From positions 1 to 39,194 of the IMG/VR virus record IMGVR_UViG_3300042434_000598: DNA of 39,194 nt, one strand, 5' to 3'. This DNA is from a virus. Position numbers and translations under genes: made by a program. Below the pieces are notes generated by a model. The model ran no database searches, was not told the origin of the DNA, and saw only the letters and a list, made by a program, of their open reading frames with translations. Each line of letters begins with the position of its first letter. The first letter of the stretch is position 1. Below, in pieces: positions 5,573 through 32,732 of this stretch.

Positions 5573-8500
5573 CTATTTCCGTTCCAGCACTTTTCGCAGC
5601 TGCCGTAGTCTCTGCACGTAGCTTTCCCTCAAGACGTAGTTATTGCCACGCATTTCGTAAGCAGAACCGTACTGTCGCTTGTAATAATCCAGCAGCATGA
5701 GACGAGCATCGTTAAAGTCGAGTCCCATCGTGCGGAACTTCTCAATGGCTTTATCTCGCTCGGAAACCGATTTCTGGAACGACTCGTCGCTCTTGTGTGT
5801 TTTCCTCTGCGGATTGGCTAGCGCGGCATACACGACAGCTTGTTTCTTAGCTTCCCTTTGGTCGAACATCTGCTTGCGTTGTTTATCCGTCAGCAAGTCC
5901 TTGTACCCAAAGTCTGGAGTGTTGTAATCCATCGCTTCGAGGTCTTTTTCAAACTGTTTCTTTCGGTCTTCTTCTGATGCCTTTTTGTACTTAGACCGCG
6001 ATCCGTGCGTTGAAACTGACACACCGAAGAAAGCTTCCAATGCCGCGAGAGTACCTCGCTTAAGACCGAGTTCGCTCTCTGCTGCGTATATCTCTCGATA
6101 GGTCAGTGGAGTAATGCGACTCCCAACGATGTTGCGATAAATCGCTGTGGGGTCGTCCTTGTCCGCTATCACGTTGCCAACCGCATCTCGTCCGCTAGCC
6201 CATTCCAAAATTGCCGATGGAGCTGTTCCTAACTTGTATCGACCGTAGTTGATAATAAAGTCTGCTGCGGTCTTTCCACCGTACTGAACGTCATCTCCAT
6301 AAATCGACTTGATCTCACCCTCGCTCGTCTTCATTTTGCCCGTCAATATTCTTGAGGCAAGGACAATGGCTGGCATCAAACCACCTTCGTCTTTGAATCG
6401 AGTCTCGCCGATCTTCATTGCAAGAGCATCGCTCGACCGCAAGTCGAATTCAAAGGTTGGCATTTCTTCTTCGTCGTCGCCTGCAAGCAAGCGATACGCT
6501 ACGTAAGCAACCGCCATTTTCGCTGTGTGACCAACCATTGCCTGAATGTACAGCTTGGCCAATGCGACCCGCATACCCCTGTCAGCATTCCATTGCCCAA
6601 TCCATTGCGGAGTCACCAACTGGAACGGAACAATGAAGTCAGCTTGGATTCGCGACCACGTCCAGCGTCTAGCGAGGAACAACCAATCAAGCCATGGATT
6701 GCCACCCTTCAAGCCAGTCCCTCGTCCGCTGAATATGTTGGCAATCCTTCCTGTCTCTTTGATGTCGTCTTCCGTCCATCCCGTGTTGACCTTAAAAAAC
6801 TCTCTGGCGGCAAGAGTGTCTCGCTTCTGAATGTCGTACATGTCTGCCTTCATGATGTTGGAGAACGTGCGGTTGCCACGCTCTGCCATCGCATACAGCT
6901 TTGCCCATGTGCGGAGGGGGAGCAAAAGTTTTGTTTCTGTATTCTCGAGCCACCGAATGATCGCCGATTGATACAGTTCTTCTAATTTCGCCTGAGGACC
7001 AGTGACCTGCGTAAAGTCAACTTTCGCCAGTTCGTATTCTTTTGCATTGGGCCTGCTCTTCAGTCCATCTGCCGATTCCAACGCGAGTCGCTGGCTAAAC
7101 ACTGCAGGTATTGCTTCCATCAGTGCGTAAAAAGCTTTCATCGGCTGCGAATACGTGTAGAAGAAGCCTTGCCGCAGAACAAAAGACATTTCTAAGCCGA
7201 GCATTAGCGTCTTTGGAATCAACGAAGTGGCCTCAAGAATCCCTTGGCCAATCCACTGTCCCGTGTTCCATGTCGCTCGCTTTGCCTTTTCGATGGCAAT
7301 CATCGCGTCATATTGCACCTCCTCGATTTCCATGTTCTTTTCGAGGATGGCTTTTTCCGTGATAGTACGCTTCTTCAAGGGCACCGGAATACGACCAGCC
7401 TTTGCTTCCTCAAGTCGCCTCTGCCAAAACGCTAGCCGCCTTTCTTGCGCCTTGCGATAACGTTGCCAATACTTCAATTCCTCCGTAGCTTGATACACGG
7501 GATTTGCTTCTAGCGCTACTTTCCGCAGTTGCCTCAAAGATCGCAACTCGGCCATGAGTTCTTCTTTTCGCTCCGAAGTCAACTCTGAGTTTTTCGCGGC
7601 AGGAGCCCATGTGCCATCCTCAAGAGCTTTAACGTCAGCCTTGACCGCACTTATCTGCCGCTCAAGCATTCGCACCGAAGCATCGAGTCGTTGCTCTTCA
7701 GTGAGTGGCTTGCGTCCCTTCTTGGGCTTCGTGGGTGGGAAGATCTTTTCGTAGTCAGCCTTAAGCTTGTCTCTCACCCTACGCTTCTGTTCGAGTTGGC
7801 TACGAAGATCCAACAAATCCTCATCTGGCTCGAGAGGTGTCTTTTCATCGACTGGTTTGACAAGTTTCGTCCTGCTCTTTACCGCCTCGTCCAGAGCAGC
7901 GATGTCCTTATCAAGCATCTCCAGCCTGTTTTTTGCTGCCGTTTTTGCTGTTGTCAGAGCAGACTTCAGTTGACCCTCCTTCGATTCAGCGGGAACCGGA
8001 AGCGTCTTCTTTAGCTTGTTGAATTGCGAAATCAACTCTCGCTCAATGCTGTCAGGTGTTGCCCTCTCCTGGCCAGTTGCTTTTGGAAGAAGACCCTTCT
8101 CTCGTAGGCGGCGAGCCACTTCTTCTGGAGTAACGCCTTTATTGAGCCACTCTTCACTTTGCTTGATAGCGTTAATCGTGTCTTCGATTTTAAGTGATTG
8201 CCTAGCCTTGCCGCGAATCGCCCGAATGATGACTTCGACTGGCTCTGTGTTTAGCGATTGCCAGACACCGTAATCGGACATCGCCTGCATTGTTTCGTAT
8301 TTCGATATCCCAGGCACTTCGGTTGACAGTTGTTCGTACACAACATCAACGACATCCTTCCAATTTTCTTCCTCAGCGCCGTAACCCAACTCAACCGCTG
8401 CCCGCATCAACTCCTTCGCTCTTGCTCCAAGTTCTGAATCCGTAGGGTTGTCGCCAATTGGAGATTCAGGTTTGTTCTTTGAAATGCTTTCGTTCCATGC

Positions 8501-11500
8501 GTCTCGAATCGCTTGTATTTGCTCTGGAGAAGCATTGCGAAGGTTAGCTTTGATCTGCGCTTCTACCTCCAAAATGGAGCTGACGCCAGCCTCTCGTAAT
8601 GCGGAAACGACATTGTTCGCTGCAGCTTTGATGTCGTTTGGTTGCCGACTTGGTGAGTAGCGGATGTCTGGATTGTTTGGGTCGAACGTGCCTCGGTTGC
8701 CGGTGGCGGATTTGATCTGGCTCTTATCTCGAACCCAAATTACGTCACGCCCCCGTACCTGCCACTTTCCACCATCCTTGTCCCATTCGTTAACTTTCAA
8801 ATAAACAGGCAGGACTTTCTCGCCATACTGTGCAGCCAACTCCTTGTCGATCGCAAACCAAATCATCCCATGCATCGGTGTATCTTCAAACACATCAAAC
8901 TCAGCATTTGTACCATGGTAAACAACCAATGGCTTCCCATCAGCATCGACTACCTTGCTGTCGCCGAACCACTTCTTGAACTCAGGGGTATCTGTTTGAG
9001 GTCGAAGATTGCGACCAGCCGCAGGACGATTGCCACCGCTCCACAGATTCTGAAACACCGAAAACGCATCGGCAACCTTTTTAACTACCGTAGCACGCTT
9101 AGTCCCCAGCTTGGGCTTTTCTGGTTCGGGTTGCGCCGCCGCTTCCGCCTTCTTCCTAGCGATGGTCTCTTTTGCCAGTTCCTCTACAAGTTTTGCGTTC
9201 TGCGCTTCTAGCTTTTTGATGCGGTCAGCCAATTGAGCATACTCTTGTAGTTGCGATTCGGTTGGTCGCTGCTGCACTTCTCGCAAATGTCGCCGAACAA
9301 GCCCAGCCACAGAAAAATCAGATGCCAACTCAACTTGGCGAGAAACACCCGTCTGACCCCAAATACTCCCAGCTTTCTCCGAAGCTTCAGTGGCTGTCAG
9401 TATTTCATCAAGAACACTTTCGCCAGCTTGGCGGCGGTTTTCAAGATCACGGATATACCTGCCTAAAACGGCTTCTTCAACACGATCTATAGCTCTTGGG
9501 TTGTTAGCCAGCTCCTCTGCAAGACGTGCTGGATAACCTGGGGTCTTTGCAATTCGCCTAGCAGCTTCCGCCTGCCATTGATCAACCGATTCTCGCTCTG
9601 GCATCACCCGTTCACCAAGACCAGCCAAAGCCCGCAATTCGTTCGTCTTTACGTTTTTTGTACCAGTTGTTTCATCACTTGCGGGCGGAGACGGTTCTCT
9701 AACTTGCGGCTTAATCAGCCCTTCCTCTTCGAGACGCTTGTACAACCCAGCAAGGATGTCGTCCTTTGGTTTTCGCCTTGGTGAGTAGCGAACGTCAGGC
9801 AGCGTCTCGTCAAATCGCTTGCTCAACGGGACGACATTTCCAGAGTCATCGTAAGTTACAGCATCAGATGATTTGATTTGTGATGGGGTAAATGCAACGT
9901 AAGCGTCGAAGTCAGACGTTCCGTCAGTATCTTTGATAATTACCCCGTCGTAGCCCATCTTTTGAATTGCCTTGACGAGAGTTCCATCGGGATCCTCTTC
10001 CTTGTCAAACAACTCCCACGAAGCGCCCTTGCGATCAAGCCATCTCGAGTTGACACCTTTAGAAACCAACGTGTTAAACTGAGCGTCAGTTATGCCGTTC
10101 CTCCAATCCAGCAGCTCACCAAATACACGGAACTTACGTACGCTTCCGCCTTTTCTTCCTCCCTGCTCTCGATATCGAGACGCCGCCTCTTCGTCGGTCG
10201 TAAAAAACGCGGCGTTCCTGCTTACCTCGTACGAACCGAATACAGTGCTGTTGAATCCCTTGCTAGGAATTTGAAACTCGTAGAAGTTGGAGTGCGGGCT
10301 ACCGTGGTACAAAACTGGTGACACTCCACCAGCAACTTCGCCAGCACCTGCAGCCGCTGCATCAACCATACGCTGTGCCTTCGCCATGTCGCCCTGGTCT
10401 ACTGCGGCAAGATACTTGGCGTCATTATTGCGACCTGGGGAGTAACGATAGTCCTCTCGTCGTCCCAGCACAGGATTCTTAGCCAATACCATACCGCCAA
10501 CTTGCACCACTTCTTCTGCCGATACCACTGGGGTCTGCGTATCTTTATCATAGAAGTAAGTGTGACGGATGGGATTCATCCCAATCTCAACCCACCGATC
10601 CTTGTTAGTCTCTGCCAGTTTGTAGGCTTGCTGCGCCGTCATCGGCACATACTCGCCTCGCATGGTAGCGATCGTGGACTTGGGCTTACCAGCGGCGATA
10701 TTCAGAGCGGCGTTTTCGGTGACCCCGAAAGTAACATTTCTCAATACAGATGTCGGAGTATAGGCGACAACTCGACCGGCACTTCCTTTGTTCAGGTCTG
10801 GGCGAGGTTCATGCAAAGAGACTACCCAAACGTTTTCGTCATCGTAGGCAGGAATATCCAGTCGAGTTTCAAGCAATCTTCCTTTGGCAATGTCTTCAGG
10901 ATTTTGGATTAGATCTCTCTTTAGTCGATCTCCAGCTTTGCGATCACCTAATCCGCGAAGCATATCTTCCTTGCTTGCTGGAATCGGCACCTCGTCAAAC
11001 TTGCGAAGAGGCATTCGCATGTCCACGATCCTCTGATACTGATTACGATCGATCAGACCAGCTTTCAGATCCTGTGCAGCTTTCGTGATCTCGGGATCAC
11101 GTTTTCTCTTTGCTTGACGACTTGGTGAGTAGCGAACACCTTCATCGCCCGTCTCCTCCATGTCTGCGGCACGACCCTCAGTCCATGTCCACTCAGGCAT
11201 CAAGCCGATTTTGTTTTCTGCAAATACCGTGTCTAGTACGCTGGCGGTTTTATTTTTTTCTGCGTATGGACCGAAGTTCAACCAGGAGTTTTGACCGCGA
11301 GTCTCGCTAGTCATTGCACCTATGGCGGGTCCGTAGTACAACCGAACATGCGCCTGCCACGCGTTTTCCTCGCCACGGGCTCTAAAGCCAGCCCCCTCCA
11401 TGCTGTGCCCAAATGCGTCGTGTACAGCGCGAAACAAATCGTTAGCGGCGACTGGGTGAGAAACCCCTTTTTGATCCTTCCACCTCAACCCAGTATCGGC

Positions 11501-14500
11501 AAGCATTGGGTTGTTTGCTAATTCAGTAGCCGTAATGCCTTCAGTTCCGTATCCAGCATATGTGCCGTACACAGCCATCTTCTTGTTTTGACGCAAGTCA
11601 CGCACGGCAGAAGATGGATTGCCGTCATACGGATCCGTGTCGCCATCATAGAAAGTAAACGTGTATCCAGCCTTTACCAACGCATCGTACTGCGACTTCG
11701 TTTGACGAATCATGTCGTCATACGCCTCTTTGACCGCTGGGTCATTTGGCGAATGCTGCATCTCCTCAAACGCTTGCGCAATACGCTTAGCCCTCTCTTC
11801 GTCTACCCGGACGTATTTGGCTTGCCGTTTGAGATTGATGCCGTTATCGCGAGCGTACTGCTCTGCGGCGTCAACTATCCCTGGGTCTGGTCCTGACGCC
11901 CCTTGAACAGATGGTGAACCTTCAAGCGGCGTATAGCTTCGGCCCTGATCCCGTCCTCTTCCGTCTCCGGTCGATTCGGATCGTCGTCCTGGGGAGTATC
12001 TTTGGCCTGAGTCTTTGATGGGGGCTGCTGTGAATTCGGTGTTCCAGCCTTGCTCTCTGGCGAACTTTCTTGTTGCGGAAATGACGGCTTGGCGTACATT
12101 GTCACTCCTTCTTTGTAGATCGGGTCGTCCGGTCCCGCCGATCCGAGATGTGTATTCTTCCCCATTTGGATTGCTTTGCCAGCTGTTAGAGGTTGCGTTG
12201 TATTCGTTGCCTTCGCTGCGGAAGGATTTTGTTGTCGTAGTGCCACCAAGGAAGCTTGGATTGCTTCCATGGAGAGCGCTGACTACCTTTTCCATTCTAC
12301 TGTGGAAGTCTAGGTTATCAATGGAGAAGTTGAGTATTCTGGCTCCATTCGGCATGAAGGCTGGAGCGAGATCCGTATCTTTCCCGAATTCCCGAAGCAT
12401 GGCGTCGTAGAGATCTTTGAATTCCGACCCTTTCCATGCCCTATTACCTGTGATTTCAAACCCATTTTCAAGAGCAGGATCGCTCGAATAAACAGGTAAA
12501 TGCCAGTAGACACCATCTTGAGACAGGACATATCCCAAGATGTTGGCGTACAAATCCAGTTTCTTCCTGTACTCCTCAGTGATGGTCTTGACGCCACCAT
12601 TGTTCTCCAGCATGACCTCAAACTTCGATTGCGAACCAGCACCGATGTCACCCTGCCATGCAGAGAATCCGGTGATTGTGACTGGAACATCGAGTCCTAC
12701 AGCCTTCGCAATCCAATCGCCGTTCTTGAACAGGACGTCAGTAATCCTCTTCAGATATTCTTTTTTTACGGCATAACTTGCATTATGAATCTCTGGAATT
12801 ATGTCAAGCGTCTTAGATGGAATAGCTTCCCATGAAAGTTGAGAATCTTTTATTCCACGACTAACCAGCTTGCCGTAAACTTCCTGCATTGCCGGGGAAA
12901 TTTCAAGATTGACTACCGGATCCGAACTTGTCTTGTTATCAATCGATTTGTATATCTTCCTGAGCCAGCTAACAACTTTTTCAAACACAGACCTAAGAGT
13001 TTTTGATGTAAATTTCCCGCCCTTAATGTATTTAAGCAGACCGTTGGCAAACTTTTCTTCGGCCTCAGTTGTCCAGTTGCCATCAACTACACCAGACCAT
13101 TTCATTGCAACGTCAATGTCAGCGTCAGTAATCCCCTCTCGCATGTCTTTTGGAATGCTTTTATCGAACAGGAACATCCTTGCTACGTGCCCTAGTTCGT
13201 GAATCCCATCTGCAACCGTTGGCTTGTTAAACGCACGCATTAGTGCTATGCCAGAATCAGTAAGTTCTACTGACGCCTTAACAGAAGCAGTCAAAGACCT
13301 CAATACCCCGTCAGATGGATAGGAAGTATCAGTAGAAACTCCCATCATCCCGTAGAACAACTTTTCCATGTCCCACATCATCTCTTGAACGATGGCTGGT
13401 TCAACACCCAACGTTTCTGCGACCTGAACCCACGCATCTTCGAGAATTTGCCTCTTGATCCTGCCTAGCTGATTGGTGTGCTTCCAAGGAACTCCAGTGT
13501 TTGGCTCTCTGAAGTAGCGAGACATCGTTCTGGCGACCCACATGTCCTTGGTAATCGTCTTAAGTTTTTGCCATCGATTCAGGATATAAGAGCCTTGCTT
13601 TGGATTGTCGCCCAATGCAAACGCGCCAACTATTTTTAGATTTGGATCATTTGGGTTCTTAAGGTCTCTTTTGAGATACTCGTGAACCTTAAGTTTTTTT
13701 GCTGCCTTATCTCCGATGACCGAAACAATCTCGGCCCATGTGTGCTCAGACTCCATCCACTTTATGGCTTTTGCTAGTCCCGATTTACCTCCGCCGAAGT
13801 GATCGACAAGCTTGCTAAAACTTCTTGCTGACGCCAAATTGAATGTTCTGGAGATTTTCTTGAACTTACCAGGAACAAGATTTGGCTCGTTAGGAATTTT
13901 TTTGCCGCTAGAAGTTACTCGACTCGACTCAAAAGTGATCTTACCTCTCGGAGTAACATACGTCGGCTTACGTGGACGCTGCCCATTCATGTCTCTAGGA
14001 GCGTTGTAATCTGTCTTCCAGACATGCTTCGGATTGGATGTCATGCCCGTTAGCGTTCCGTGTAACATCCACTCTTTCAGGACCATTAATCCAATCAACG
14101 TATCTACACTTGGTATAGCGTTGGCAGATGAAAACGAACCCATAATGTGAAGCAGCTTAACTTCATCATCAGTAAGTTTATCCCTACCCTCCGCAGCCAT
14201 TTTAGCTGCAATGTCCTTGTCTCTTTTAGCCCATTTACTCAACCATGGGTTCGCCCTATCGATAATGTCAGTGGTATAAAAACTGATATATGATCGGTTG
14301 AGTTTTTTCCAAGCGTTAATTTCTAATAGCGTGTGCTTTACGATGGCATCAACGGCAGCTTGACGCCCATCGGATGTGTTAAAGTCAACACCTTCTGGAA
14401 CAACCTTGTTTTGATTGGCATACTCACCAATCCACGCCACCGCAGACTTTAATGTCTTTTGAACAGCAACCGGTTCTTCACCAGAGAGAATTTTGTGGAC

Positions 14501-17500
14501 TTGGAATAAAGCGTTTTCCGCAGGCATTCCGCCTTTGACTAGCTGTATCCGTGACTTGTCCAATCCCATTGCCTCGGCAATAGAACTAACAGCAGTGGCA
14601 ACATCCTTAGGGACGCCGAAAACTTTCTCGATAACACCTGGAGTAAAAGCTTTTTCAGAAAACTCTTCTTTGCCTCTTGCAGGTGCCGCACGACGACCAC
14701 CCTTGCCCTTCATGGCAACGTTGTTTCGCTTCATCGCCCTTTCGATCGCTTGGCGTGTCTGCCCAGCAAGCGTGTTTGGGTTGGTCACTCCTGGCTCAGC
14801 AAACCGCAACACTCGTCGCACCCAACGACCGATTCTTGCTAGTAATCCTGGCTTTGCCTTGCCGAGGTCGTTCCAGAACTTGAAGTAAGCCGCCCTGTCT
14901 TCTAGGTAGCGAGACAAGCCCTCGTCGTTTAGCAAGTCCTCGTCTTCGAGCAGACGTTCGTAGTATCCGGCATCTACTTCTTTCATGTCTGCGAGATACG
15001 CGACTTTAGCCTTGCCTAGCCCAACCGAATCGTTTTTGCTGACCCAGTTGTAGAGCGATCTCCATGCCTTGGGTGACGACCGCTTGATTGCATGGAACAT
15101 TTCATGGGCAAACAAACCCCATGTCATTGCCTTCTCTGGGCGACCCTCTTTCTTCAGAAGGCTATCCCATTTTTCTACATAGTTCCGAACAAGCCAAATA
15201 GTGCGAGAGTTTGGAATAAACAGCCCAGGTACTCCTTGGTCGGGACTACCTTCGACCAGCCGAAGCGTAATGCCGATCTTATTGAGTATCTGCTTCTGCT
15301 TACGCTCGTCTTCGGTAAAGTCTTTGGACGGGATCTCTTTCCCTTCCGGCTTTTTGGGGGGACTTGCGTCTTTATCGGATTCACCGCGAGGAGCTGCTTG
15401 ACGTTTCTTCTTTCTAGATGGTTTTGCTTTTGCAGCAGCGGTTTCGAGATACTCTCTGATTGTTGGTTGGCTATTAAGCTTATCTGATATTTCGTCAACA
15501 ATATCTTCTCGTTCAGTAGCCTTAACATCCAACTCTCTCGCCAAGTCTTGCAGGTCTTCCTTATTTAGACTGCGAAGGTAAGTCTTTGCTGGCGACTCCT
15601 TCGTCTCCTGCTTGGCTTTAACTTCGGGCTGCGCAGGAGCGATTTCTGGCTTATCTTCTTGCTGTGAAGCGGCTTTGTCAAAATCTTCTGCTGTTACAAG
15701 ATCGCTTGTCGGCTCCGTTCCTTTCCATGCATACACTGGCGTACCATCTGGTCGATACATTTGCGTAAGAAGCCCCGCATCAACCATTGGTCGCAACGAA
15801 CGTGCAACCCACCCACGCGAATCTTTGCCAGGCAATCTGTCAGATATTTCATTCGCTGCCAGCCAACGGTTTTCTGGCATTTTGTTTCGAAACGTGAACG
15901 CAAAAGACTTCTTGCCAGCGTCTTCTGGTCTCATCTCGCCAGACTGCACCATCGCTTCCGTAAATTGCTCTGGGGTTGGCTTTTTTTGTTTTCCTGCAGC
16001 TTTTGGAGGTTGCTCAGCGGGTTGTTTTTTAGAAGGAGCCTTTTTCTTAACCGACCTTGGCTTTGGCAATTCCTTCTGACCAGCAAAGTCATACGTGCCA
16101 GCAATCATGTCCGCCAGATACGTGTCTACCTTTGGAACACTTAGCGGCATTAGCAAACCAACCACCTCGCCGTTAACAGCGTAAACTACCGGCGTGGTTA
16201 TTTCATTACCTTTCTTCGCCTCTCCGTATATCGTTGCTTTTGGGTGTCGCTTCAATATCGTGTCGTGATAAGCCTTGCTCAAAAGAACATAATCGCCGCT
16301 ATCGTTTTTTAGCATGACTTGTCTTTCAGACATGTCTCCGCCGCGATAACCGACAACAGTCATTTCATTGCCTGGTTTAATGGTGTTTCTGGTGGGAGCG
16401 ATAACAGACTCTACCTTCACCTCCCTGCCTATGCCTTCAATTCCAGATCTTTTCTTCGATGAAGCTAATATTGCGTCCCTGTCTTTATCGGGAGCCTTGA
16501 TTAGCACTCGACCATCTGTGTAATAACCAGTAGCCTTCAGAGTTGCTGCAAGACTTTCACCCTGAGCCACATTCCACAAGCCAGCCAGCTTTTCATTTGA
16601 GTACGACATGCTCCCAGAGTCAGTCTGGGTGAACCTCTTGTCATCGTCTTTGTCAAATGCGCCTTCAAAAACACGTTCCGCTATGTCTTTTGCCTTTTTC
16701 TGGTCCGAAATGTTAGACGCCTCAAAGTCCCATGATTTCGAACCAGCTTGCCTCACGGTCCAAGTGCCGCTATCCTTGGACTTCTCAATGAGTAACACGC
16801 GGTCGCCTCGAGACGCTCGAATTGTCTGAGCAACTCCTGAAGCGTTTTGCTTAATGCTTGTGTACTCTGTGGGCATAGGCTCTGCAGAAGGTTCTGGAAA
16901 AACAGGCGACGGCGCTTCGTCCGCCGCCTGCTCCTCCATAGGACTTATTTGCCCTTCGGACGGCCTTTGCCCCCCTTCGGTTTGCACTTGCACATTAGGA
17001 TCACCTCCCCCCTTGGTTCCACGAGCATCTTGCACCTCCTCACGTTGACGATCTCCCGACACCGCATCAGGAGACTCGGAAATCTTTTGACTTCCATTCG
17101 GAACAATCCACTCCGATTCATCAGCATCAAAAAGACCAAGAGATTTTACCTCTAAACCAACGGCACCTTCCTTGGTGTAAACCGTCCCGCCGTACTCCTT
17201 GGCCCATTTCTCTGCTTGCTTTTTATCAGATGTCCAGCCCAGGTACGGACTGTCGTTTTTACTGGGGTCTTTATTATCGCCTCTGTACAAGGTCGGCGCA
17301 GCTTTGGATCGTTCGGCAACGCCATCCACAAACGCCCTAGCGAGTTCAACGCCCTCTTTGACGTTGCCGCCTTCGACATTCCCGCCTTCCAAGAAAACTT
17401 TCAGGTATCGCTTTAGATTTGAGGGACTGCCCTTCCATGTTCTTATAGCTTCTTTTAGCTTCTCGCTAACTTCAGGTTGGAAAGAAGGCGTTGGCGCTGA

Positions 17501-19696
17501 CACCGCGTCAACAGGCGTGGGCTCAATTGGATTCTGTACAGGAAACGGATCGCTTGACTGCGGTGGTGTTTGCTGCTTGCGATACGAGATCTTCTTTGCG
17601 GGCAACGGAGTCGCTGCGACCACCTCAAACGGGTTTGCGACCTCGGCCTCCGTAGGCTGCACGTTGTAGCCTGACATCGCCGTCTCCACTTGCGGCTGCT
17701 GCACCTGAGCTTCTTGTGGTGCCTGCCGCAACGGAACGTCAAACGGGTCGGTAGAAGGCGGCATGCCCTCTGGCTGCGACACTGGAGGTTGCTGTGTGGC
17801 GGGAGGTATTGCCTGTTCCGATGACGGTGGGAACGGGTCGGTAGAAGGCGGTATAGCTTCCGGTTGCACAACAGGAGATTGTGGCTGATCCAATGAAGGA
17901 ACAGCAGGTTGCGGCGTTGCGGATCGCATCCTCTCCATTTCTATCGCAGCCTGCCTAGCCACCTCTTCGTCGTTAATCAACGCTTCTTCGTTAAGCGGAT
18001 CAGTTGGAGGTTGTTGCTGAGCATTGGGTTCTGGTGCAGGCGTTTCCTCGAATGCATCGCTAGGCGGTGGCGTAACCGGGGGCATTTGTCCCGCAACTGG
18101 TGGGACAGCTTCGTCAGCTGACGAACCAAGCATGCTTCTTAGTTGCTTTTCAAGATTTGCAATTTCCTGTTGAGCACTTGCTAATCGATTTTCTTTTGTA
18201 GTGGGTTCACCTGTTGCAATATCAATAAGGGTTGTTCCGTTATTGGCTTCCCTGACAAGTCCCTGTTGTCTAGCGAGTTCTCTCGGGAAAGATTCCCTTT
18301 TTCCCGTTTTGACTTCATTAACCACTCTTTTCAGCAACTCTAACCTTGCCTGAACATTGCTCGGGTCTTCGCTTGTGTCGGCTCCAGGCGGGAGCTGTGG
18401 GATGAACGGGTCGGTAGAAGAGTCTGCGCCACGACGACCGCCACGACCGCCTCGCAACCCAACCAACTCAACGCCCGTTGTGCCAGATTTAACCGCGCCT
18501 CCAACAAGAGCCCCACCCGCAGCGGCCTCTGCCCACTGCATGAAGTTCTCTTTGTTGAACAAGTCGGACTTCGGGTCGTTGATCTCCTTGTTAAGCGATC
18601 CGAGAAATTCCTGAAAACCTTCCTGAACGCCTTCTTCTCCAGACGCCTTCGCTGTATCCCATAAATATCCAGCAGCCGCCCTCCAGCCTTCTCTGCGAGC
18701 TATTTCATCGACGCCAGATCTACCAGCAAACGACTTCAGTACACCTGGAGCGGCTCCAAGCAAAGATTCAGAAAGGCCAGAAGCCAAACCAAGCCCCATT
18801 GCAGTCCCTGGAGAGTCGTAGCCAGCTTCTCTACCCTCCATATACATGCCGCCGCCTTCATGAAGGCCTGTAACAGCAGTTGTGGCCGCAGCAGACCCAA
18901 AACGCTTAGCGACCTCTCTTCCAACGTATTGTTTAGCAAGCCCCTCAGCAGCTTCAGCAGCCATTCCTCGCTTGACATACTCCGCTGCAGCATTGGAAAT
19001 GGCTTTTTTGATAGCACCTTTGGCGAAAACACCACCCACTGCCCCAATAGGAACTGTCGCAACGTCAAGCGGGTCAGGAGCTGGCACAACAGCAGCACCA
19101 AGAGCAGCACCAGCAATACCTGTTAAAACCGACTCAGCCAATGATGGAACCGCCTCGCCTAAAGTTCCAGCAGCGTAAGTTCCAAAGTTGCTAAAACTAC
19201 CGAACGCGCCCGTTTTCGGATCTGTAGAGAAAAAATCAATGTTGTCTCGCGGGTTTTCAGACGCTTGACGCATCTCGTCTTTATACGCCTGGAAATATTG
19301 TTGAGCCGAAGGTTCGTCTCCAGCTAAGGAACTCAACATTCCTAAGCCGCCTTGATAAGTCCCTTGAAGATTGTCAAACCCGCGATACAGCCCTCGCAGA
19401 AAAGGATTGCGAGCCTCAAGGTTTATCTTTCCAAAAGCTTCCGAATTGCGACGGCGAAAATCCTCAATTTCTCTTTTTGCTTGTTCGCGATAAAACAAAT
19501 CAAGAATTGGAGTAGGTGCTCGCTTCCTGCTATCCATAATTGCCTGTTCGCGAGGGTCATCATATGCAGGGACAGGGATTTGCTCGGCCCAATTAGAAGT
19601 TAGACTTTGATCGTCTGATGCATTTATGTCGCTAGGAAGGCTTCCAGAATTCATTTCGTCCCTTATTTGCCGAAAACGATCAAGAATCTCGCCCAT
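5573..19696 (-). CDS. Giant polyvalent virion protein (4707 aa)
   Basis: One uninterrupted 14.1-kb frame, started by ATG with GGAG eight bases upstream. Approximate layout: Gly/Ala-rich hydrophobic segments at 173-240, 266-326 and 390-430, as in ejected virion proteins; a Pro-rich linker with STDPF-type motifs (428-720); ART1 at 770-880 (Y804-R805-G, WTS, E860-S-E862); a winged-helix-like stretch near 1270-1315; zincin 1 with H1531-EMF-H1535; a long helical region; zincin 2 with H2166-ELG-H2170; a block with H2759-DAFGH and TETRGQNSW; a phage domain near 2940-3060; ART2 (H3131 in YHGS); a coiled coil at 3485-3525; ART3 (H3594 in YHGT, SQIKS); coiled coils 3900-4130; and a conserved C-terminal helical domain with a SGRG motif near 4320. 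RYSP linkers lie at 2566, 2855, 3084, 3303 and 3679. Such multidomain proteins are packaged and injected to modify or protect against the host; the delivery role here is inferred. Confidence 0.9.
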   Translation of the reverse strand: MGEILDRFRQIRDEMNSGSLPSDINASDDQSLTSNWAEQIPVPAYDDPREQAIMDSRKRAPTPILDLFYREQAKREIEDFRRRNSEAFGKINLEARNPFLRGLYRGFDNLQGTYQGGLGMLSSLAGDEPSAQQYFQAYKDEMRQASENPRDNIDFFSTDPKTGAFGSFSNFGTYAAGTLGEAVPSLAESVLTGIAGAALGAAVVPAPDPLDVATVPIGAVGGVFAKGAIKKAISNAAAEYVKRGMAAEAAEGLAKQYVGREVAKRFGSAAATTAVTGLHEGGGMYMEGREAGYDSPGTAMGLGLASGLSESLLGAAPGVLKSFAGRSGVDEIARREGWRAAAGYLWDTAKASGEEGVQEGFQEFLGSLNKEINDPKSDLFNKENFMQWAEAAAGGALVGGAVKSGTTGVELVGLRGGRGGRRGADSSTDPFIPQLPPGADTSEDPSNVQARLELLKRVVNEVKTGKRESFPRELARQQGLVREANNGTTLIDIATGEPTTKENRLASAQQEIANLEKQLRSMLGSSADEAVPPVAGQMPPVTPPPSDAFEETPAPEPNAQQQPPTDPLNEEALINDEEVARQAAIEMERMRSATPQPAVPSLDQPQSPVVQPEAIPPSTDPFPPSSEQAIPPATQQPPVSQPEGMPPSTDPFDVPLRQAPQEAQVQQPQVETAMSGYNVQPTEAEVANPFEVVAATPLPAKKISYRKQQTPPQSSDPFPVQNPIEPTPVDAVSAPTPSFQPEVSEKLKEAIRTWKGSPSNLKRYLKVFLEGGNVEGGNVKEGVELARAFVDGVAERSKAAPTLYRGDNKDPSKNDSPYLGWTSDKKQAEKWAKEYGGTVYTKEGAVGLEVKSLGLFDADESEWIVPNGSQKISESPDAVSGDRQREEVQDARGTKGGGDPNVQVQTEGGQRPSEGQISPMEEQAADEAPSPVFPEPSAEPMPTEYTSIKQNASGVAQTIRASRGDRVLLIEKSKDSGTWTVRQAGSKSWDFEASNISDQKKAKDIAERVFEGAFDKDDDKRFTQTDSGSMSYSNEKLAGLWNVAQGESLAATLKATGYYTDGRVLIKAPDKDRDAILASSKKRSGIEGIGREVKVESVIAPTRNTIKPGNEMTVVGYRGGDMSERQVMLKNDSGDYVLLSKAYHDTILKRHPKATIYGEAKKGNEITTPVVYAVNGEVVGLLMPLSVPKVDTYLADMIAGTYDFAGQKELPKPRSVKKKAPSKKQPAEQPPKAAGKQKKPTPEQFTEAMVQSGEMRPEDAGKKSFAFTFRNKMPENRWLAANEISDRLPGKDSRGWVARSLRPMVDAGLLTQMYRPDGTPVYAWKGTEPTSDLVTAEDFDKAASQQEDKPEIAPAQPEVKAKQETKESPAKTYLRSLNKEDLQDLARELDVKATEREDIVDEISDKLNSQPTIREYLETAAAKAKPSRKKKRQAAPRGESDKDASPPKKPEGKEIPSKDFTEDERKQKQILNKIGITLRLVEGSPDQGVPGLFIPNSRTIWLVRNYVEKWDSLLKKEGRPEKAMTWGLFAHEMFHAIKRSSPKAWRSLYNWVSKNDSVGLGKAKVAYLADMKEVDAGYYERLLEDEDLLNDEGLSRYLEDRAAYFKFWNDLGKAKPGLLARIGRWVRRVLRFAEPGVTNPNTLAGQTRQAIERAMKRNNVAMKGKGGRRAAPARGKEEFSEKAFTPGVIEKVFGVPKDVATAVSSIAEAMGLDKSRIQLVKGGMPAENALFQVHKILSGEEPVAVQKTLKSAVAWIGEYANQNKVVPEGVDFNTSDGRQAAVDAIVKHTLLEINAWKKLNRSYISFYTTDIIDRANPWLSKWAKRDKDIAAKMAAEGRDKLTDDEVKLLHIMGSFSSANAIPSVDTLIGLMVLKEWMLHGTLTGMTSNPKHVWKTDYNAPRDMNGQRPRKPTYVTPRGKITFESSRVTSSGKKIPNEPNLVPGKFKKISRTFNLASARSFSKLVDHFGGGKSGLAKAIKWMESEHTWAEIVSVIGDKAAKKLKVHEYLKRDLKNPNDPNLKIVGAFALGDNPKQGSYILNRWQKLKTITKDMWVARTMSRYFREPNTGVPWKHTNQLGRIKRQILEDAWVQVAETLGVEPAIVQEMMWDMEKLFYGMMGVSTDTSYPSDGVLRSLTASVKASVELTDSGIALMRAFNKPTVADGIHELGHVARMFLFDKSIPKDMREGITDADIDVAMKWSGVVDGNWTTEAEEKFANGLLKYIKGGKFTSKTLRSVFEKVVSWLRKIYKSIDNKTSSDPVVNLEISPAMQEVYGKLVSRGIKDSQLSWEAIPSKTLDIIPEIHNASYAVKKEYLKRITDVLFKNGDWIAKAVGLDVPVTITGFSAWQGDIGAGSQSKFEVMLENNGGVKTITEEYRKKLDLYANILGYVLSQDGVYWHLPVYSSDPALENGFEITGNRAWKGSEFKDLYDAMLREFGKDTDLAPAFMPNGARILNFSIDNLDFHSRMEKVVSALHGSNPSFLGGTTTTKSFRSEGNEYNATSNSWQSNPNGEEYTSRIGGTGRPDLQRRSDNVRQAVISATRKFAREQGWNTEFTAAPIKDSGQRYSPGRRSESTGDGRGRDQGRSYTPLEGSPSVQGASGPDPGIVDAAEQYARDNGINLKRQAKYVRVDEERAKRIAQAFEEMQHSPNDPAVKEAYDDMIRQTKSQYDALVKAGYTFTFYDGDTDPYDGNPSSAVRDLRQNKKMAVYGTYAGYGTEGITATELANNPMLADTGLRWKDQKGVSHPVAANDLFRAVHDAFGHSMEGAGFRARGEENAWQAHVRLYYGPAIGAMTSETRGQNSWLNFGPYAEKNKTASVLDTVFAENKIGLMPEWTWTEGRAADMEETGDEGVRYSPSRQAKRKRDPEITKAAQDLKAGLIDRNQYQRIVDMRMPLRKFDEVPIPASKEDMLRGLGDRKAGDRLKRDLIQNPEDIAKGRLLETRLDIPAYDDENVWVVSLHEPRPDLNKGSAGRVVAYTPTSVLRNVTFGVTENAALNIAAGKPKSTIATMRGEYVPMTAQQAYKLAETNKDRWVEIGMNPIRHTYFYDKDTQTPVVSAEEVVQVGGMVLAKNPVLGRREDYRYSPGRNNDAKYLAAVDQGDMAKAQRMVDAAAAGAGEVAGGVSPVLYHGSPHSNFYEFQIPSKGFNSTVFGSYEVSRNAAFFTTDEEAASRYREQGGRKGGSVRKFRVFGELLDWRNGITDAQFNTLVSKGVNSRWLDRKGASWELFDKEEDPDGTLVKAIQKMGYDGVIIKDTDGTSDFDAYVAFTPSQIKSSDAVTYDDSGNVVPLSKRFDETLPDVRYSPRRKPKDDILAGLYKRLEEEGLIKPQVREPSPPASDETTGTKNVKTNELRALAGLGERVMPERESVDQWQAEAARRIAKTPGYPARLAEELANNPRAIDRVEEAVLGRYIRDLENRRQAGESVLDEILTATEASEKAGSIWGQTGVSRQVELASDFSVAGLVRRHLREVQQRPTESQLQEYAQLADRIKKLEAQNAKLVEELAKETIARKKAEAAAQPEPEKPKLGTKRATVVKKVADAFSVFQNLWSGGNRPAAGRNLRPQTDTPEFKKWFGDSKVVDADGKPLVVYHGTNAEFDVFEDTPMHGMIWFAIDKELAAQYGEKVLPVYLKVNEWDKDGGKWQVRGRDVIWVRDKSQIKSATGNRGTFDPNNPDIRYSPSRQPNDIKAAANNVVSALREAGVSSILEVEAQIKANLRNASPEQIQAIRDAWNESISKNKPESPIGDNPTDSELGARAKELMRAAVELGYGAEEENWKDVVDVVYEQLSTEVPGISKYETMQAMSDYGVWQSLNTEPVEVIIRAIRGKARQSLKIEDTINAIKQSEEWLNKGVTPEEVARRLREKGLLPKATGQERATPDSIERELISQFNKLKKTLPVPAESKEGQLKSALTTAKTAAKNRLEMLDKDIAALDEAVKSRTKLVKPVDEKTPLEPDEDLLDLRSQLEQKRRVRDKLKADYEKIFPPTKPKKGRKPLTEEQRLDASVRMLERQISAVKADVKALEDGTWAPAAKNSELTSERKEELMAELRSLRQLRKVALEANPVYQATEELKYWQRYRKAQERRLAFWQRRLEEAKAGRIPVPLKKRTITEKAILEKNMEIEEVQYDAMIAIEKAKRATWNTGQWIGQGILEATSLIPKTLMLGLEMSFVLRQGFFYTYSQPMKAFYALMEAIPAVFSQRLALESADGLKSRPNAKEYELAKVDFTQVTGPQAKLEELYQSAIIRWLENTETKLLLPLRTWAKLYAMAERGNRTFSNIMKADMYDIQKRDTLAAREFFKVNTGWTEDDIKETGRIANIFSGRGTGLKGGNPWLDWLFLARRWTWSRIQADFIVPFQLVTPQWIGQWNADRGMRVALAKLYIQAMVGHTAKMAVAYVAYRLLAGDDEEEMPTFEFDLRSSDALAMKIGETRFKDEGGLMPAIVLASRILTGKMKTSEGEIKSIYGDDVQYGGKTAADFIINYGRYKLGTAPSAILEWASGRDAVGNVIADKDDPTAIYRNIVGSRITPLTYREIYAAESELGLKRGTLAALEAFFGVSVSTHGSRSKYKKASEEDRKKQFEKDLEAMDYNTPDFGYKDLLTDKQRKQMFDQREAKKQAVVYAALANPQRKTHKSDESFQKSVSERDKAIEKFRTMGLDFNDARLMLLDYYKRQYGSAYEMRGNNYVLRESYVQRLRQLRKVLERK

Positions 19697-19739: not shown

Positions 19740-22700
19740 TCAGGAAGTTCTTCTTTGACTGGGAGAAGCGAAGCTTTTTTTCCCACCGCGATTTATGCCG
19801 TCCTTGTTCTGTGGTTTCGTTTCGTATTTTTGTTTTTTGGGTTTCGGTTCTTGACTTATGTCGCCCTCATTACTGTTTGCCGGAATTCCTCTCGGTGCCA
19901 TCTCTGCCATAGCCATCAACTTGCTTTGGTCCTCTTCGCTAAGTTGCCCGCTGTAGAAATTCACAACAGCACCGTCTTCTCGCTTGAACGTGATTACCCT
20001 TTGACCGCCAATTTCTTTCATTGGATGGGAAATCAACTCGACAGTGCCTTTCATCTTTCTGTTTCCATCTGCTGCTGTCAGTTCAACCATTGAATTATTT
20101 TGGTCTTTAGAAGACTGATAAGGTGCAGAATTTGTGCTCCACCACTCGTTCCAAAATTCGTTTTGTACTGCCGGTTGATCTTTAGGCAAACCAATAGGTT
20201 TTTTCTGTTCGAGTAAATCTTTTCTTGACGGAGTTGTCTGCGATTGATCAGGAGCAATTTCAGATGCAATTGCATCAATTGTTGGGGAACCCTGTTTAGG
20301 CACCGTAGGCTGCGGTTGCGTAGTATTTGGAGGCGCAGGTTTTTGTCCATAATCAATTACTATTGGATTTTCAAATCCAGGCACTGGTTTTACGCCAGAA
20401 GGAAGTTTAGGTGCCTTACGATTTGCAGATTTCGAAGACTTATTAGATTCTCTTTCTTTTTCAATATTAGCAATATATTCGATCGTCGCTCCTGCAATTG
20501 ATAAGGTCTGAATTGCGGAATTTATATCTGCCTGAGTCGATGCTGGATTTCTAATAACTTCAGCAGCTTTTATAGCAATTTCCGTACTTGGCTCAAAAGC
20601 ACCTTGCGGCGTTGACTGTGGTGCCTGTTGTTGCGGCGCAGACGGTGGTTGCATCACCGGACGACCTTGCGAATCACGCGGTATCGGCACCACTTGTCCT
20701 GCTTGGTTCACCATGTAGCCTCTCGAGGCAAGTTCCTCTGGAGTCAGCCGTCGTTCTTGAGCGTTAGGATCTCTCCACCCATCCCACCACGCTGGTCTTG
20801 CGGGGGGTTGAAATTGTGACTCATCACTGGGTGAAGCGTATGGTTTTCCGTATCCGTCAACGCCTCGCTTTTTGAGTTTACCTACTTTCTTTAACAACTC
20901 TTCAGAGTCTGCATCCCTAAATAACCACCGACCCTTCTTTTTCAATGCCGCCGTAAACTTTGCTCCCTCCGTTGGTCCTAGTTCAGCAAGAATTTGAGTG
21001 TATGGACTCGTATCTCGCGGGTCCATGTTCGCGCCAGCAGGCGGCAATCGTTCGCCTTTCGGACCTGTGACTCTAATTCCTGGTTGACTTGCTAAACCAG
21101 GAGATGTCGCAATTTGCCCGTCTTGCAGCACAGGCTGCTCGTAAGCCGGAGGAGCTTCTTGGCGGGCACCTCCTCGCTGAGATAAAATACCTCCGCTAAC
21201 TCCACCAACACCGTATTTGCCCTTGCGTCCGGATTCCAATTGCTCTGGCGTTGGAGTCTGCCGAGGTCGCGGCTCACGCATTCGTTGACCTTCAGGCGTA
21301 TCTGGATTAAACATCTCTTGGTAAGTTCCTTGGTTTTCACCCTCCATCCTAGTTTCGCTAGCGTAATCCGGTGTCTGCATAACGATGGCGCGATCTTTTT
21401 CGCTGAGGTCTTGCAATGGGACAACATATGTTTTTCCGTCTTTTGTGCGTATTACCGCAACGTCGCTAACTGCTGGATCGCCATCATTGAAATGACGGAC
21501 ACCACGAAGCTCACCTTTGAACGTCTTACCTTTATTGTTAGTCCAAACTCTAGGCTTGCCAATTGACGGCGTATCGCGAGCGACTGGCCTTTGATTGTAT
21601 AGCCTGTTAGCTTCATTGCGTTTCCACTGGTCGTATTCCTTTTCGTGTGCATCTATCGCATCAAGTACTTTCTGGCCATCCGGACGCTTTGCTATTTCCT
21701 TCCTAAGAGCATCAGCGGATTGCTCGTAGCTGATATTTGGGTTGTATTGAATTTCAGCAGATGGAGCGGCGGGACTTGACTGAGGACCGTTCTGCGCTGG
21801 AGCCGCTGGTTGCGCAAGAACATTCTCTCGCCCCCAAACTTGGTTATAATACGATGGAGTTGCTCGAGAAATATCGCCAGTTTTTCCCGTAACATTACCC
21901 TTTGATGTTGCATCTGTGTACTCGTTAATCACATTTGCGGATCTTCTTTGATCTTTTAAGCTTCCGTCTGGATGATCAAGCCTAACGACGGATTGTGTCG
22001 CTTTACCTCCGGTACTCATAGCCAAGGAGTCCCTTGGGTCTACCTTGCTGCCGTCACTCATAATGACATAGCCGTGTTCGTCTGTCCGATTGGTTGGTGT
22101 CGGGTCTGGCTTGTAATCTGGGTGTGCTGGAGCCAACGCTGGACCCAACGCTGTCCAATCACCATTGCGCGAAGCAGGGGGATTCGCCTGAGAACCGGGC
22201 TGCACTGGCGTGCCTTGCTGTTGTCTTGCCGACCTTAGCGCCGGAAGGAAAACATCTTGCATTAGCACCTGCTGGTCTGGTGTTAAGTAATGCTGCCAGC
22301 CACCACCTAACCCAGCCATAATCCTCGGATCGCTACCAGGGCCGAAAAGCATCTTGTTTTGCTGCGAGCCACCCTGCGGTAGAATAGTTTCCTGACTAAA
22401 GCTATTCGGATACATATCTTCCTGCATTCTAGCCATCGTCGCTGGGTTCGGCGCAACCTGAGCCACACCGTCGTACCCAACCTGCATCAGTTCTGGTCCT
22501 TCTTCCCCGACCGTTACCGTTTGGCCGGGATACACAGGACCGCCGTAACGACGTTCTCCAATCCTTCGTTCCTTTTGAAGCTCGTCAAGCACACTGTTGT
22601 ACGGATTATCGTCGTCAGCCGCCGCTGCCGGAAGTTGTGCTTGAGGTGTTGCGGCCTTGGGTTGTAAAGCGGTAATAGGGGCTCTCAATGCGTTCAAAAT

Positions 22701-23330
22701 ATCCTGGTCAGACGGCACAGCGCCATTTTGATTTTGCTCCATAAGCCGAGTCCTAGTATTGTTCCACGCCTCAAAGTAATCTTTGGGGTTTTCTTGAGCC
22801 CACTTATTAAACGCATCAGGCGCTTGACGTTGCTCGCGAACAGCATTCGCAGTAGATGGGTCCAATGTGCTCGTTCCCAAAAGAGCTTCCTTGTTTCTGA
22901 GAATTCTATCTAAGCCTTCTTGTTTCTGTGCGTCGTTAAGTCGCGTATTATTTCGCAGTGTATTTTCTCTGTCTATGAGATTTCGTAATTGCCTAGATAC
23001 TCCATAGCCAAACCCACCTGCATCGATCATCTTTTGGATTTCTGCATTGTCTTCTTGCCACGATGCCATTGACGGCTGTTGCGGCAAAACTGGGTCAACA
23101 CCAAACACTGGCTCCGCACCGATCCCTGGCTTGGCTTTTTTCTTTTGATCGCCAATGCCGATGCCACCATACGTGCCGCCAGTGTTGTACTTCAGCGGTT
23201 GCATTTGCGATGAACGCATTGCGTTATCACGTTCTTGCTGACGCTGAACCATCTGCATGCCAGCGTTGAAACGCGAGTCGTCCTTGGTTTGCATTATGCC
23301 AGCAACGTCGTGTCGTAATTTAATTCCCAT
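19740..23330 (-). CDS. Large disordered virion-type protein with SHD1-like domains (1196 aa)
   Basis: The ATG at 23330 has AAGGAG seven bases upstream; an in-frame start 21 bases earlier lacks one. The protein is rich in Gln, Pro, Ala and Asn and is mostly low-complexity. Three ordered parts stand out. Near residues 261-295 is GGPVYPGQTVTVGEEGPELM, a glycine-rich motif typical of phage tape-measure and related virion proteins. Around 592-648 (VWTNNKGKTFKGELRG to VVPLQDLSEKDRAIV) and 1079-1139 (ending SGQLSEEDQSKLM) are two domains resembling SHD1 (SLA1 homology domain 1), which is common in planctomycete proteins. The C-terminus is Lys-rich. It lies 43 bases upstream of the giant gene and 27 downstream of the trifunctional enzyme gene. 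It is probably an internal or ejected virion component; that role is inferred. Confidence 0.8.
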   Translation of the reverse strand: MGIKLRHDVAGIMQTKDDSRFNAGMQMVQRQQERDNAMRSSQMQPLKYNTGGTYGGIGIGDQKKKAKPGIGAEPVFGVDPVLPQQPSMASWQEDNAEIQKMIDAGGFGYGVSRQLRNLIDRENTLRNNTRLNDAQKQEGLDRILRNKEALLGTSTLDPSTANAVREQRQAPDAFNKWAQENPKDYFEAWNNTRTRLMEQNQNGAVPSDQDILNALRAPITALQPKAATPQAQLPAAAADDDNPYNSVLDELQKERRIGERRYGGPVYPGQTVTVGEEGPELMQVGYDGVAQVAPNPATMARMQEDMYPNSFSQETILPQGGSQQNKMLFGPGSDPRIMAGLGGGWQHYLTPDQQVLMQDVFLPALRSARQQQGTPVQPGSQANPPASRNGDWTALGPALAPAHPDYKPDPTPTNRTDEHGYVIMSDGSKVDPRDSLAMSTGGKATQSVVRLDHPDGSLKDQRRSANVINEYTDATSKGNVTGKTGDISRATPSYYNQVWGRENVLAQPAAPAQNGPQSSPAAPSAEIQYNPNISYEQSADALRKEIAKRPDGQKVLDAIDAHEKEYDQWKRNEANRLYNQRPVARDTPSIGKPRVWTNNKGKTFKGELRGVRHFNDGDPAVSDVAVIRTKDGKTYVVPLQDLSEKDRAIVMQTPDYASETRMEGENQGTYQEMFNPDTPEGQRMREPRPRQTPTPEQLESGRKGKYGVGGVSGGILSQRGGARQEAPPAYEQPVLQDGQIATSPGLASQPGIRVTGPKGERLPPAGANMDPRDTSPYTQILAELGPTEGAKFTAALKKKGRWLFRDADSEELLKKVGKLKKRGVDGYGKPYASPSDESQFQPPARPAWWDGWRDPNAQERRLTPEELASRGYMVNQAGQVVPIPRDSQGRPVMQPPSAPQQQAPQSTPQGAFEPSTEIAIKAAEVIRNPASTQADINSAIQTLSIAGATIEYIANIEKERESNKSSKSANRKAPKLPSGVKPVPGFENPIVIDYGQKPAPPNTTQPQPTVPKQGSPTIDAIASEIAPDQSQTTPSRKDLLEQKKPIGLPKDQPAVQNEFWNEWWSTNSAPYQSSKDQNNSMVELTAADGNRKMKGTVELISHPMKEIGGQRVITFKREDGAVVNFYSGQLSEEDQSKLMAMAEMAPRGIPANSNEGDISQEPKPKKQKYETKPQNKDGINRGGKKSFASPSQRRTS

Positions 23331-23357
23331 GAAACTTCTCCTTTTAATCAAGCGATT

Positions 23358-25388: not shown

Positions 25389-26514
25389 CTAATGCGCAAA
25401 CCTCAACTAAATATCTGCAACTTCCCCTGTTGCCTGCGTTCATAGGGTCAATTGGAACAGTGGTGCAAAAACAAAGCAAATTACTTGAAACTACAGTTAT
25501 AGGTCCAAACATTGCACACGGTTGGCTGCAATCAGTACTGTAAGCTGGGAAAGATAATTGAGCCGAACATCCAATCGACACATTCAAATTTAACAAAGTG
25601 CCGCCGTATCCATTGCTTCCGCAACTGACCTCTAACGAAAAGTATTCATCTCCTAAACAACAAAAACCATCTCCTTCCCATACGCCATCTAACCTATTCC
25701 ACTGCAACACAATTTCGCAAGGTGCGTTTATTTGCTCCATCTTGTCAAGGCGAATGCAAGGAACGTCGTCTGGGTGAACATAAATTTTAGCTACTAACGT
25801 CGGACCCCATTCAACCGAACCGTCAATACCATCGCACGTGCAAATACACGAATTGCATACGCCAAACGGAGCTGACTCTAAAAGATATCTGAAAAACGAA
25901 AACTTCCTTATAGTCATTCCGACTTCACTCAGCGAAAAACCAGAATAGTATCCGTTGGCGAACAAGCCACCATGAACTGTCGAAACAAGAGACAAGACTG
26001 CATTAGTTACACCTCCGCATAGAACATTGTCGGTGATAAACGCCCAAACAGTTCTTGTGTCTCCAGTCAAACCTATGATGTCATCCTCTTTGAGGATTGC
26101 TTCAACACCACCGCTGACTATCCCCAGCCGCAGAACAGAATTGGCTATGCCTTGCACCTCGAACTCGACAAAATAGTAATTCTCTGAATCGCACACCAAC
26201 GGATCGCCGCTTGCTGTTCTATCTACGTTGACGAGCACTCTGTATTTGTCACCGCTATCAACAACTTCATCGCAAGTGACCAAAGAAGCGATCATACTTC
26301 CTTCGGGCACTGGATGCGGGACATTAAGAATGGCAAGTGCGTTTGCGACCAAACATCTCGCTCCTCCGCACTGCTCGTCGATAATTGCCGCTGCTATTTC
26401 GTAATCGCCCTCTTCGTCGCACCAGCGTCCACGCAGAGGTGTACCAGGGGTTCTGCCGAAACCATCTTCGTGAATTAAACATGTTGCATCACAGCAACAA
26501 TTCCACCATGCCAT
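25381..26514 (-). CDS. Cys-rich virion-region protein (377 aa)
   Basis: The ATG at 26514 is preceded by AGGGAA. The product contains 26 cysteines (about 7%), among them CCC at residues 6-8, a CNSCICTC cluster in the middle and LLCFC near the C-terminus. Between them are beta-rich segments (YYFVEFEVQGIANSVLRLGI, VAKIYVHPDD) suggesting beta-sandwich domains. There is no signal peptide or transmembrane segment, which fits a virion component whose cysteines could form disulfides or bind metal once outside the cell. I do not recognise a family. It lies 10 bases after the preceding Cys-containing gene and overlaps the start of the glycosyltransferase fusion. Confidence 0.75.
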   Translation of the reverse strand: MAWWNCCCDATCLIHEDGFGRTPGTPLRGRWCDEEGDYEIAAAIIDEQCGGARCLVANALAILNVPHPVPEGSMIASLVTCDEVVDSGDKYRVLVNVDRTASGDPLVCDSENYYFVEFEVQGIANSVLRLGIVSGGVEAILKEDDIIGLTGDTRTVWAFITDNVLCGGVTNAVLSLVSTVHGGLFANGYYSGFSLSEVGMTIRKFSFFRYLLESAPFGVCNSCICTCDGIDGSVEWGPTLVAKIYVHPDDVPCIRLDKMEQINAPCEIVLQWNRLDGVWEGDGFCCLGDEYFSLEVSCGSNGYGGTLLNLNVSIGCSAQLSFPAYSTDCSQPCAMFGPITVVSSNLLCFCTTVPIDPMNAGNRGSCRYLVEVCALDV

Positions 26515-26524
26515 GAATTATTCC

Positions 26525-27316: not shown

Positions 27317-27317
27317 A

Positions 27318-29318: not shown

Positions 29319-29332
29319 AATGAACTCCTTTA

Positions 29333-31477: not shown

Positions 31478-31479
31478 AG

Positions 31480-32724: not shown

Positions 32725-32732
32725 GTCATCGC

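Follow-up and report, generated by a model that had tools for sequence, protein, structure and literature searches.

What kind of gene is a single open reading frame of 4,707 codons in a phage, and how is a protein of that length put together? These questions are raised by the viral DNA analysed here (IMG/VR record IMGVR_UViG_3300042434_000598, 39,194 nucleotides, hereafter the window). A preliminary description had proposed that this frame encodes one polyvalent protein with many enzyme-like domains, probably in a planctomycete phage, and had called its length striking.

The frame of the giant protein, P0001, begins with ATG and contains no internal stop across its 4,707 codons, and a GGAGA that resembles a ribosome-binding site lies about 10 nt 5′ of the start. 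An independent 73-kb IMG/VR assembly (G001) carries the same gene. Over the main 36-kb block, window and G001 are 99.9% identical with 30 mismatches, whereas all 14,124 nt of the giant gene are free of differences. Intact homologues of 4,275 to 5,163 aa were found in five further distinct IMG/VR phages (P0002, 5,163 aa; P0003, 4,497 aa; P0004, 4,275 aa; L039 and L108, 4,991 and 4,867 codons, respectively, both as stop-to-stop frames). The intact frames in these phages indicate that the P0001 frame did not arise by chance and is a real, conserved gene, as the preliminary description had assumed. Its length is not exceptional, since gp69 of the podovirus JC1 has a comparable 4,515 aa. The features of the gene are collected in Table 1.

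Table 1. Features of the giant gene and its surroundings (window coordinates; aa, residues of P0001)
Feature	Residues	Window position	Strand	Basis or remark
Giant polyvalent protein gene (P0001)	4,707 aa	5573..19696	(-)	ORF and homologues
N-terminal region	aa 1-420	18437..19696	(-)	Gly-rich hydrophobic segment aa 186-204
ART1-like region	aa 766-880	17057..17401	(-)	YRG...TSDK...ESE, R-S-E-type motifs
Zn1 zincin-like domain	aa 1460-1660, HEMFH aa 1531-1535	14717..15319	(-)	Homologue alignment
Seam 0, RAAPAR	aa 1669-1674	14675..14692	(-)	Boundary of Zn1 and cassette array
DUF7178-like module	aa 1700-2150	13247..14599	(-)	Homology to proteins that pass DUF7178
Zn2 zincin-like module	aa 2155-2300, HELGH aa 2166-2170	12797..13234	(-)	Sequence alignment
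Seam 1, RYSPGR	aa 2566-2571	11984..12001	(-)	Motif search
HDxFGH module	aa 2572-2850	11147..11983	(-)	Homologue alignment; best-modelled domain of the aa 2560-3690 model
Seam 2, RYSPSR	aa 2855-2860	11117..11134	(-)	Motif search
L5_gp82-like cassette	aa 2861-3083	10448..11116	(-)	PF25735, 5.5e-10
Seam 3, RYSPGR	aa 3084-3089	10430..10447	(-)	Motif search; identity with P0002 drops here
ART2 cassette	aa 3090-3302	9791..10429	(-)	PF18760 ART-PolyVal, 1.4e-10
Seam 4, RYSPRR	aa 3303-3308	9773..9790	(-)	Motif search
Coiled-coil module	aa 3309-3560	9017..9772	(-)	Present in 6/6 giants
ART3	aa 3564-3678	8663..9007	(-)	Start of ART-PolyVal present
Seam 5, RYSPSR	aa 3679-3684	8645..8662	(-)	R-Y-S and final R in place in 6/6 giants
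Constant C-terminal region	aa 3685-4707	5576..8644	(-)	No family matched
Co-oriented tail/virion gene block upstream of the giant		19740..38918	(-)	Giant is its last gene

To characterize the chain, the whole protein and successive slices were scanned against Pfam, and most of it was not assigned to any family. ART-PolyVal was recognized in two stretches, with an E-value of 1.4e-25 and 91.2 bits for the whole protein (cut-off 31.2). The slice that holds ART2 reaches 42.5 bits to PF18760 against the same cut-off, and the domain is complete in the alignment. ART3 falls about 50 residues short of its homologues; relative to them its central to C-terminal part is deleted, and it lacks the segment around GYDG. 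ART1 gave no Pfam match in the sliced scan; a motif alignment shows its homology to a cassette in the array of L039, with which it shares the YRG, TSDK and ESE motifs. Of the at least three ADP-ribosyltransferases (ARTs) proposed earlier, one appears to be complete, one is truncated and one is assigned by motif only. The two zincin motifs that had been proposed are real, and HExxH and a downstream glutamate are conserved in the homologues of both. The H, E, H and downstream E of Zn1 are invariant in 6/6 giants, in regions only 46-54% identical to that of P0001, and Zn1 is the better-modelled part of an AlphaFold2 model of aa 1395-2340. Zn2 aligns with zincin-like regions of four other polyvalent proteins. 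For the zincin fold itself, neither domain gave a match in Pfam or in PDB searches by sequence or by fold, the latter made with a weak model. Several hydrophobic N-terminal segments had also been suggested; only that at aa 186-204 passes a simple hydropathy threshold.

The remaining modules are a mixture of recognizable families and of regions conserved among phages. The DUF7178-like module matches L066 (phmmer, 8e-12), and L066 and L060 match PF23802 at 1.3e-8 and 2.9e-9. The P0001 slice itself stays below the cut-off for this family (13 bits, E 0.096), while P0003 and P0004 pass. The HDxFGH module is a very widespread phage domain, with at least 576 relatives in IMG/VR and enzyme-like invariant residues (VHDxFGH, GEENAW and TSETRGQNSWLN). 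It occurs twice in tandem in P0002, and its distant relatives include gp205 of Rhodococcus phage E3, which its depositor annotated as a structural protein. The N-terminal region is common to L039 and L108 and of a different type in P0002-P0004, and identity among the six giants is 64-82% over the final 643 aa. With the C-terminal 947 aa and aa 1411-2399 as queries, tblastn returned no match in 50,697 phage records, and a scan of genome contigs with the P0001 C-terminus revealed no relative. Methylase and helicase families were not matched in whole-protein or sliced Pfam scans. LPD38 (PF18857) gave no match in hmmscan slices, nor in a genome profile search of the window in which the positive control was likewise silent. 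AlphaFold2 models of aa 2560-3690 and aa 1395-2340 had mean pLDDT values of 51 and 58, respectively, and neither found a PDB fold at E <= 0.001. Matches of the aa 2560-3690 model in BFVD were phage proteins only, several of them polyvalent, mainly via the HDxFGH domain.

The part of this architecture that the preliminary description overlooked, and that we consider unusual, is a short peptide that recurs between the modules, together with an exchange of the modules that it separates. The hexapeptide RYSPGR and its variants, here called seams, occur six times in P0001, and five of the six are of RYSP type. Seams of the relatives stand at module ends as well. In a shuffle test, RYSP or SPGR ranked first among the repeated 4-mers of P0001-P0004 (p 0.01, the lowest value that the test can give), as did RYSP in L039 (p 0.02); a different, non-significant 4-mer ranked first in L108. 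Among other open frames of 100 or more residues in four phages, none contained the strict motif. A seam-like R-A-[SA]-x-x-[RK] directly follows Zn1 in 6/6 giants, so that the cassette array is bounded at both ends. The motif is degenerate (Y/A, S/A, P/V/A), and at the DNA level the R-Y-S codons share 73-93% of their nucleotides, compared with about 64% expected from codon usage (P 0.0002-0.07), the copies being more alike than predicted in three of the four giants tested. All five RYSP seams lie in segments with pLDDT below 50, which is weak evidence as 62% of the model is also below this value.

To relate the seams to the divergence of the giants, the edges of BLASTP blocks among the six proteins were compared with seam positions. 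Within 20 aa of a seam lay 93 of 287 edges, whereas 23.2 were expected, which is an about four-fold enrichment; none of 5,000 shifted seam sets reached 93. Block edges are interdependent, and the shift control keeps this dependence. The seams are therefore module boundaries that coincide with homology breakpoints. Moreover, cassettes have been transferred recently among giants that are otherwise diverged. The ART2 cassettes of P0001 and P0004 show 99.5% amino acid identity and are identical at 77/77 four-fold degenerate sites, while four-fold identity between the same two proteins is 0.29 in Zn1 and 0.29-0.40 in the C-terminal region, which is near saturation. The neighbouring L5_gp82 cassette has a four-fold identity of 0.83 in this pair, and the similarity collapses about 12-25 residues past seam 4. 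Across three pairs, the L5_gp82 cassette reaches 0.73-0.84, compared with 0.23-0.29 for the last 640 residues. Its amino acid sequence is 91-96% identical in three other phages (93% in P0002, where similarity stops at seam 3). When exact DNA matches were sought, the ART2 probe occurred in two phages only and the L5_gp82 probe in four, every one of them a member of the family, and the shared ART2 cassette stands on contigs of different metagenomes. The simplest reading of these sequence comparisons is that seam-bounded cassettes are exchanged within the family.

Similar punctuation was looked for in other polyvalent proteins. In ART-bearing proteins whose ART end could be used, the tetramer found at that end (mostly [RT][YF]S-x) recurs 13 times elsewhere in the same protein, compared with 0.94 times expected from other proteins (Poisson P ~3e-11). 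Five of these recurrences follow ARTs that the search pattern had missed, and eight follow no recognizable ART. In Planktothrix phage Pag-Yong1, ESAR is repeated four times (p ~0.04). One universal seam was not found among 49 other polyvalent proteins, and in most of them no repeated 4-mer was significant. Each lineage appears to use its own seam.

The genomic surroundings place the gene in a virion context. The phage has a recognizable terminase large subunit and portal, and its relatives are contigs of 50-73 kb; the gene order across them suggests that the contigs begin at different points of one arrangement. Giants occupy the same gene place in the podovirus ctQRb9 (MW202722; 3,209 aa, within a virion gene block) and in cyanophage Mel-JY33 (a 12,039-nt gene of about 4,012 codons). 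Polyvalent proteins have been described by Iyer et al. in 2017 as mosaic architectures, and these authors had already put forward that embedded metallopeptidases release the domains (PMC5512222). P0001 resembles the proteins described there in its many disparate domains, ART-PolyVal, zincin-like regions, virion context and mosaicism. It combines at least two biochemically disparate domains (ART-PolyVal, zincin-like, DUF7178-like and L5_gp82-like in one chain) in a portal-terminase phage, as the last gene of a tail/virion block, and the label polyvalent, given to it earlier, is well founded. The word ‘linker’ does not occur in the text of that paper, and in the sections consulted we found neither a recurrent seam peptide nor seam-bounded exchange.

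Among individual proteins, P0001 is similar in size and in its last place in the virion block to JC1 gp69 and Bcep22 gp75. JC1 gp69 takes up 22% of its genome, closes the virion module and was detected by mass spectrometry in CsCl-purified virions (PMC9144972). Both gp69 and gp75 are DarB-like proteins with a HepA (helicase-type) region, whereas P0001 lacks, by Pfam, the methylase-helicase dyad that is characteristic of DarB-like proteins. The HDxFGH module is shared with the ctQRb9 giant and with the 2,772-aa ‘large polyvalent protein’ of Pag-Yong1 (58% and 50% identity); an ART is also shared, in ctQRb9 additionally Zn2, but the ends and the module set of both proteins differ from P0001. P1 DarA and DdrB are internal virion proteins that are proteolytically processed, and Dar proteins are ejected with the DNA, according to PMC12810830 and PMC5512222. 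They are much shorter than P0001, and the cut that the prohead protease Pro makes in DarA lies close to the N-terminus and not at repeated seams.

Taken together, we favour an explanation, to which we assign a probability of about 0.6, in which P0001 is a polyvalent protein that is produced late, associates with the virion and is probably both packaged and ejected together with the DNA. The virion location is suggested by the place of the gene in the tail block, by the giants of ctQRb9 and Mel-JY33 and by the presence of JC1 gp69 in virions. The injected multi-enzyme package considered in the preliminary description would agree with this gene position and with precedent. Between conserved parts, namely Zn1, the coiled coil and the C-terminal region, would lie an array of exchangeable, enzyme-like cassettes that mostly end at the lineage-specific hexapeptide, and recombination at or near the seams would swap the cassettes. 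The tradable enzymes (ARTs, zincins and others) may target the host at an early stage of infection, as is established for Alt of T4 and proposed for polyvalent proteins (PMC5512222). The chain might be loaded as one piece and then be released as separate enzymes by cuts at the seams. That the seam is a cut site, for Zn1 as the invariant peptidase or for another protease, we regard as a tentative proposal with somewhat less than an even chance. It is prompted by the fixed junction of Zn1 and seam, by the uniformity of the lineage peptides within each protein and by the processing of DarA and DdrB. On the other hand, the degenerate motif is loose for a protease site and the likeness of the seam codons suits copying or recombination, both of which count against processing. 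The explanation as a whole is weakened by the negative Pfam and PDB searches for Zn1 and Zn2, by the low confidence of the models and by the failure to find one seam common to the 49 other polyvalent proteins.

It is also quite conceivable, at slightly worse than even odds, that the chain works intact and that the seams are flexible linkers providing shared sequence for homologous recombination, with no proteolysis at all. The excess similarity of the R-Y-S codons points to copying or DNA homology more than to selection at the protein level alone, and the recent exchanges stop at a seam or shortly after it. In addition, the vRNAP of N4 is packaged unprocessed despite containing a zincin, as stated by Iyer et al. 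(PMC5512222). However, seam codons still vary between copies, and six phages keep the hexapeptide at one and the same junction, among them P0003, in which the preceding ART has been replaced, which argues for a constraint at the protein level. The recombination and processing roles of the seams can coexist. An origin of the seams as scars, that is, as ART-PolyVal tails (..NPDIRYS..) left behind when duplicated ARTs were replaced by other modules, seems unlikely to us. The ART tail does end in R-[YF]-S in many phages, and P0003 has NPDIRYSPGR at aa 3469 with no PF18760 match before it. Yet three of the five RYSP seams of P0001 follow modules other than ARTs, eight of the 13 recurrences in other proteins follow no recognizable ART, and the end of Zn1 is seam-like in all six giants.

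Two further explanations concern the nature of the gene as a whole. A structural or tape-measure protein of the tail that carries decorating domains would fit a long, partly coiled-coil product encoded at the end of a tail block, but such a role is difficult to reconcile with the ART-PolyVal domains in the chain. When the lengths of the giants alone were compared, they ranged over the full span given above among close relatives as a result of module swaps and were not fixed. We consider this explanation very improbable and rejected it. An artefact of assembly or gene prediction is less probable still. A cassette that is identical in two genomes could in principle be a chimera, but the ART2 cassette was found on contigs from separate metagenomes; for the frame, this explanation was discarded, as two independent assemblies agree base for base and the frame is intact in six phages.

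How the modules of polyvalent proteins are joined, exchanged and released was previously open, and only their mosaicism had been described. The novelty of P0001 lies in its punctuation-like seams and in the seam-bounded exchange, and not in its size or content; in a partial search of the literature, we found no description of either. A peptide that predicts boundaries would allow giant proteins to be parsed without homology and would account for the exchange of cassettes in frame. The seams also make the earlier proposal of polyprotein-like processing directly testable. As judged from sequence, the layout suggests a general rule for building giant proteins, perhaps also for cutting them apart. 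The broadest form of this idea, which we consider doubtful, is that polyvalent proteins are polyproteins with a lineage-specific punctuation peptide that is cut by an embedded zincin and doubles as an exchange joint. If this were true, exchanged cassettes would stay cleavable wherever they land.

With regard to the host, a scan of 84,980 genomes placed the relatives of the terminase on MAG contigs of Pirellulaceae (64% identity) and Planctomycetaceae (50%), bearing in mind that MAG binning is fallible. The virus therefore probably infects planctomycete bacteria, and the host suggested in the preliminary description gains indirect backing. The phage may be temperate, as a tyrosine integrase is encoded at 2462-3538 (+) of the window (Phage_integrase, 2.4e-13).

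Several other observations were made in the window and in related contigs. The 13,494-nt gene of P0003 is identical at 32726-46219 of G003 (IMGVR_UViG_3300017754_001906) and 11304-24797 of G004, contigs from different metagenomes. At 5595-8402 (+), G003 also encodes a terminase large subunit with an intein-like insertion of about 300 aa, which begins after C and ends in VHNC and which G001, G002 and G005 lack. The direct neighbour of the giant gene in the window, at 19740-23351 (-), encodes a Pro/Gln-rich protein of 1,203 aa that contains a GGPVYPGQTVTVGEEGPEL segment; relatives have a frame of a different length here (980 in G002, 561 in G003). At 23358-25388 (-) lies a 676-aa fusion that may be a second multi-enzyme protein of the virion block, judging from weak similarity to glycosyltransferase family 8, phosphoribosyltransferase and polynucleotide-kinase/nucleotidase-like regions. 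Finally, a tail-region gene at 35784-37400 (-) contains BspA/DUF285 leucine-rich repeats. It encodes 538 aa in the window and 682 aa in its counterpart at 69136-71184 of G001, with a different number of repeats in assemblies that are otherwise 99.9% identical, which suggests a receptor-like array that expands and contracts.
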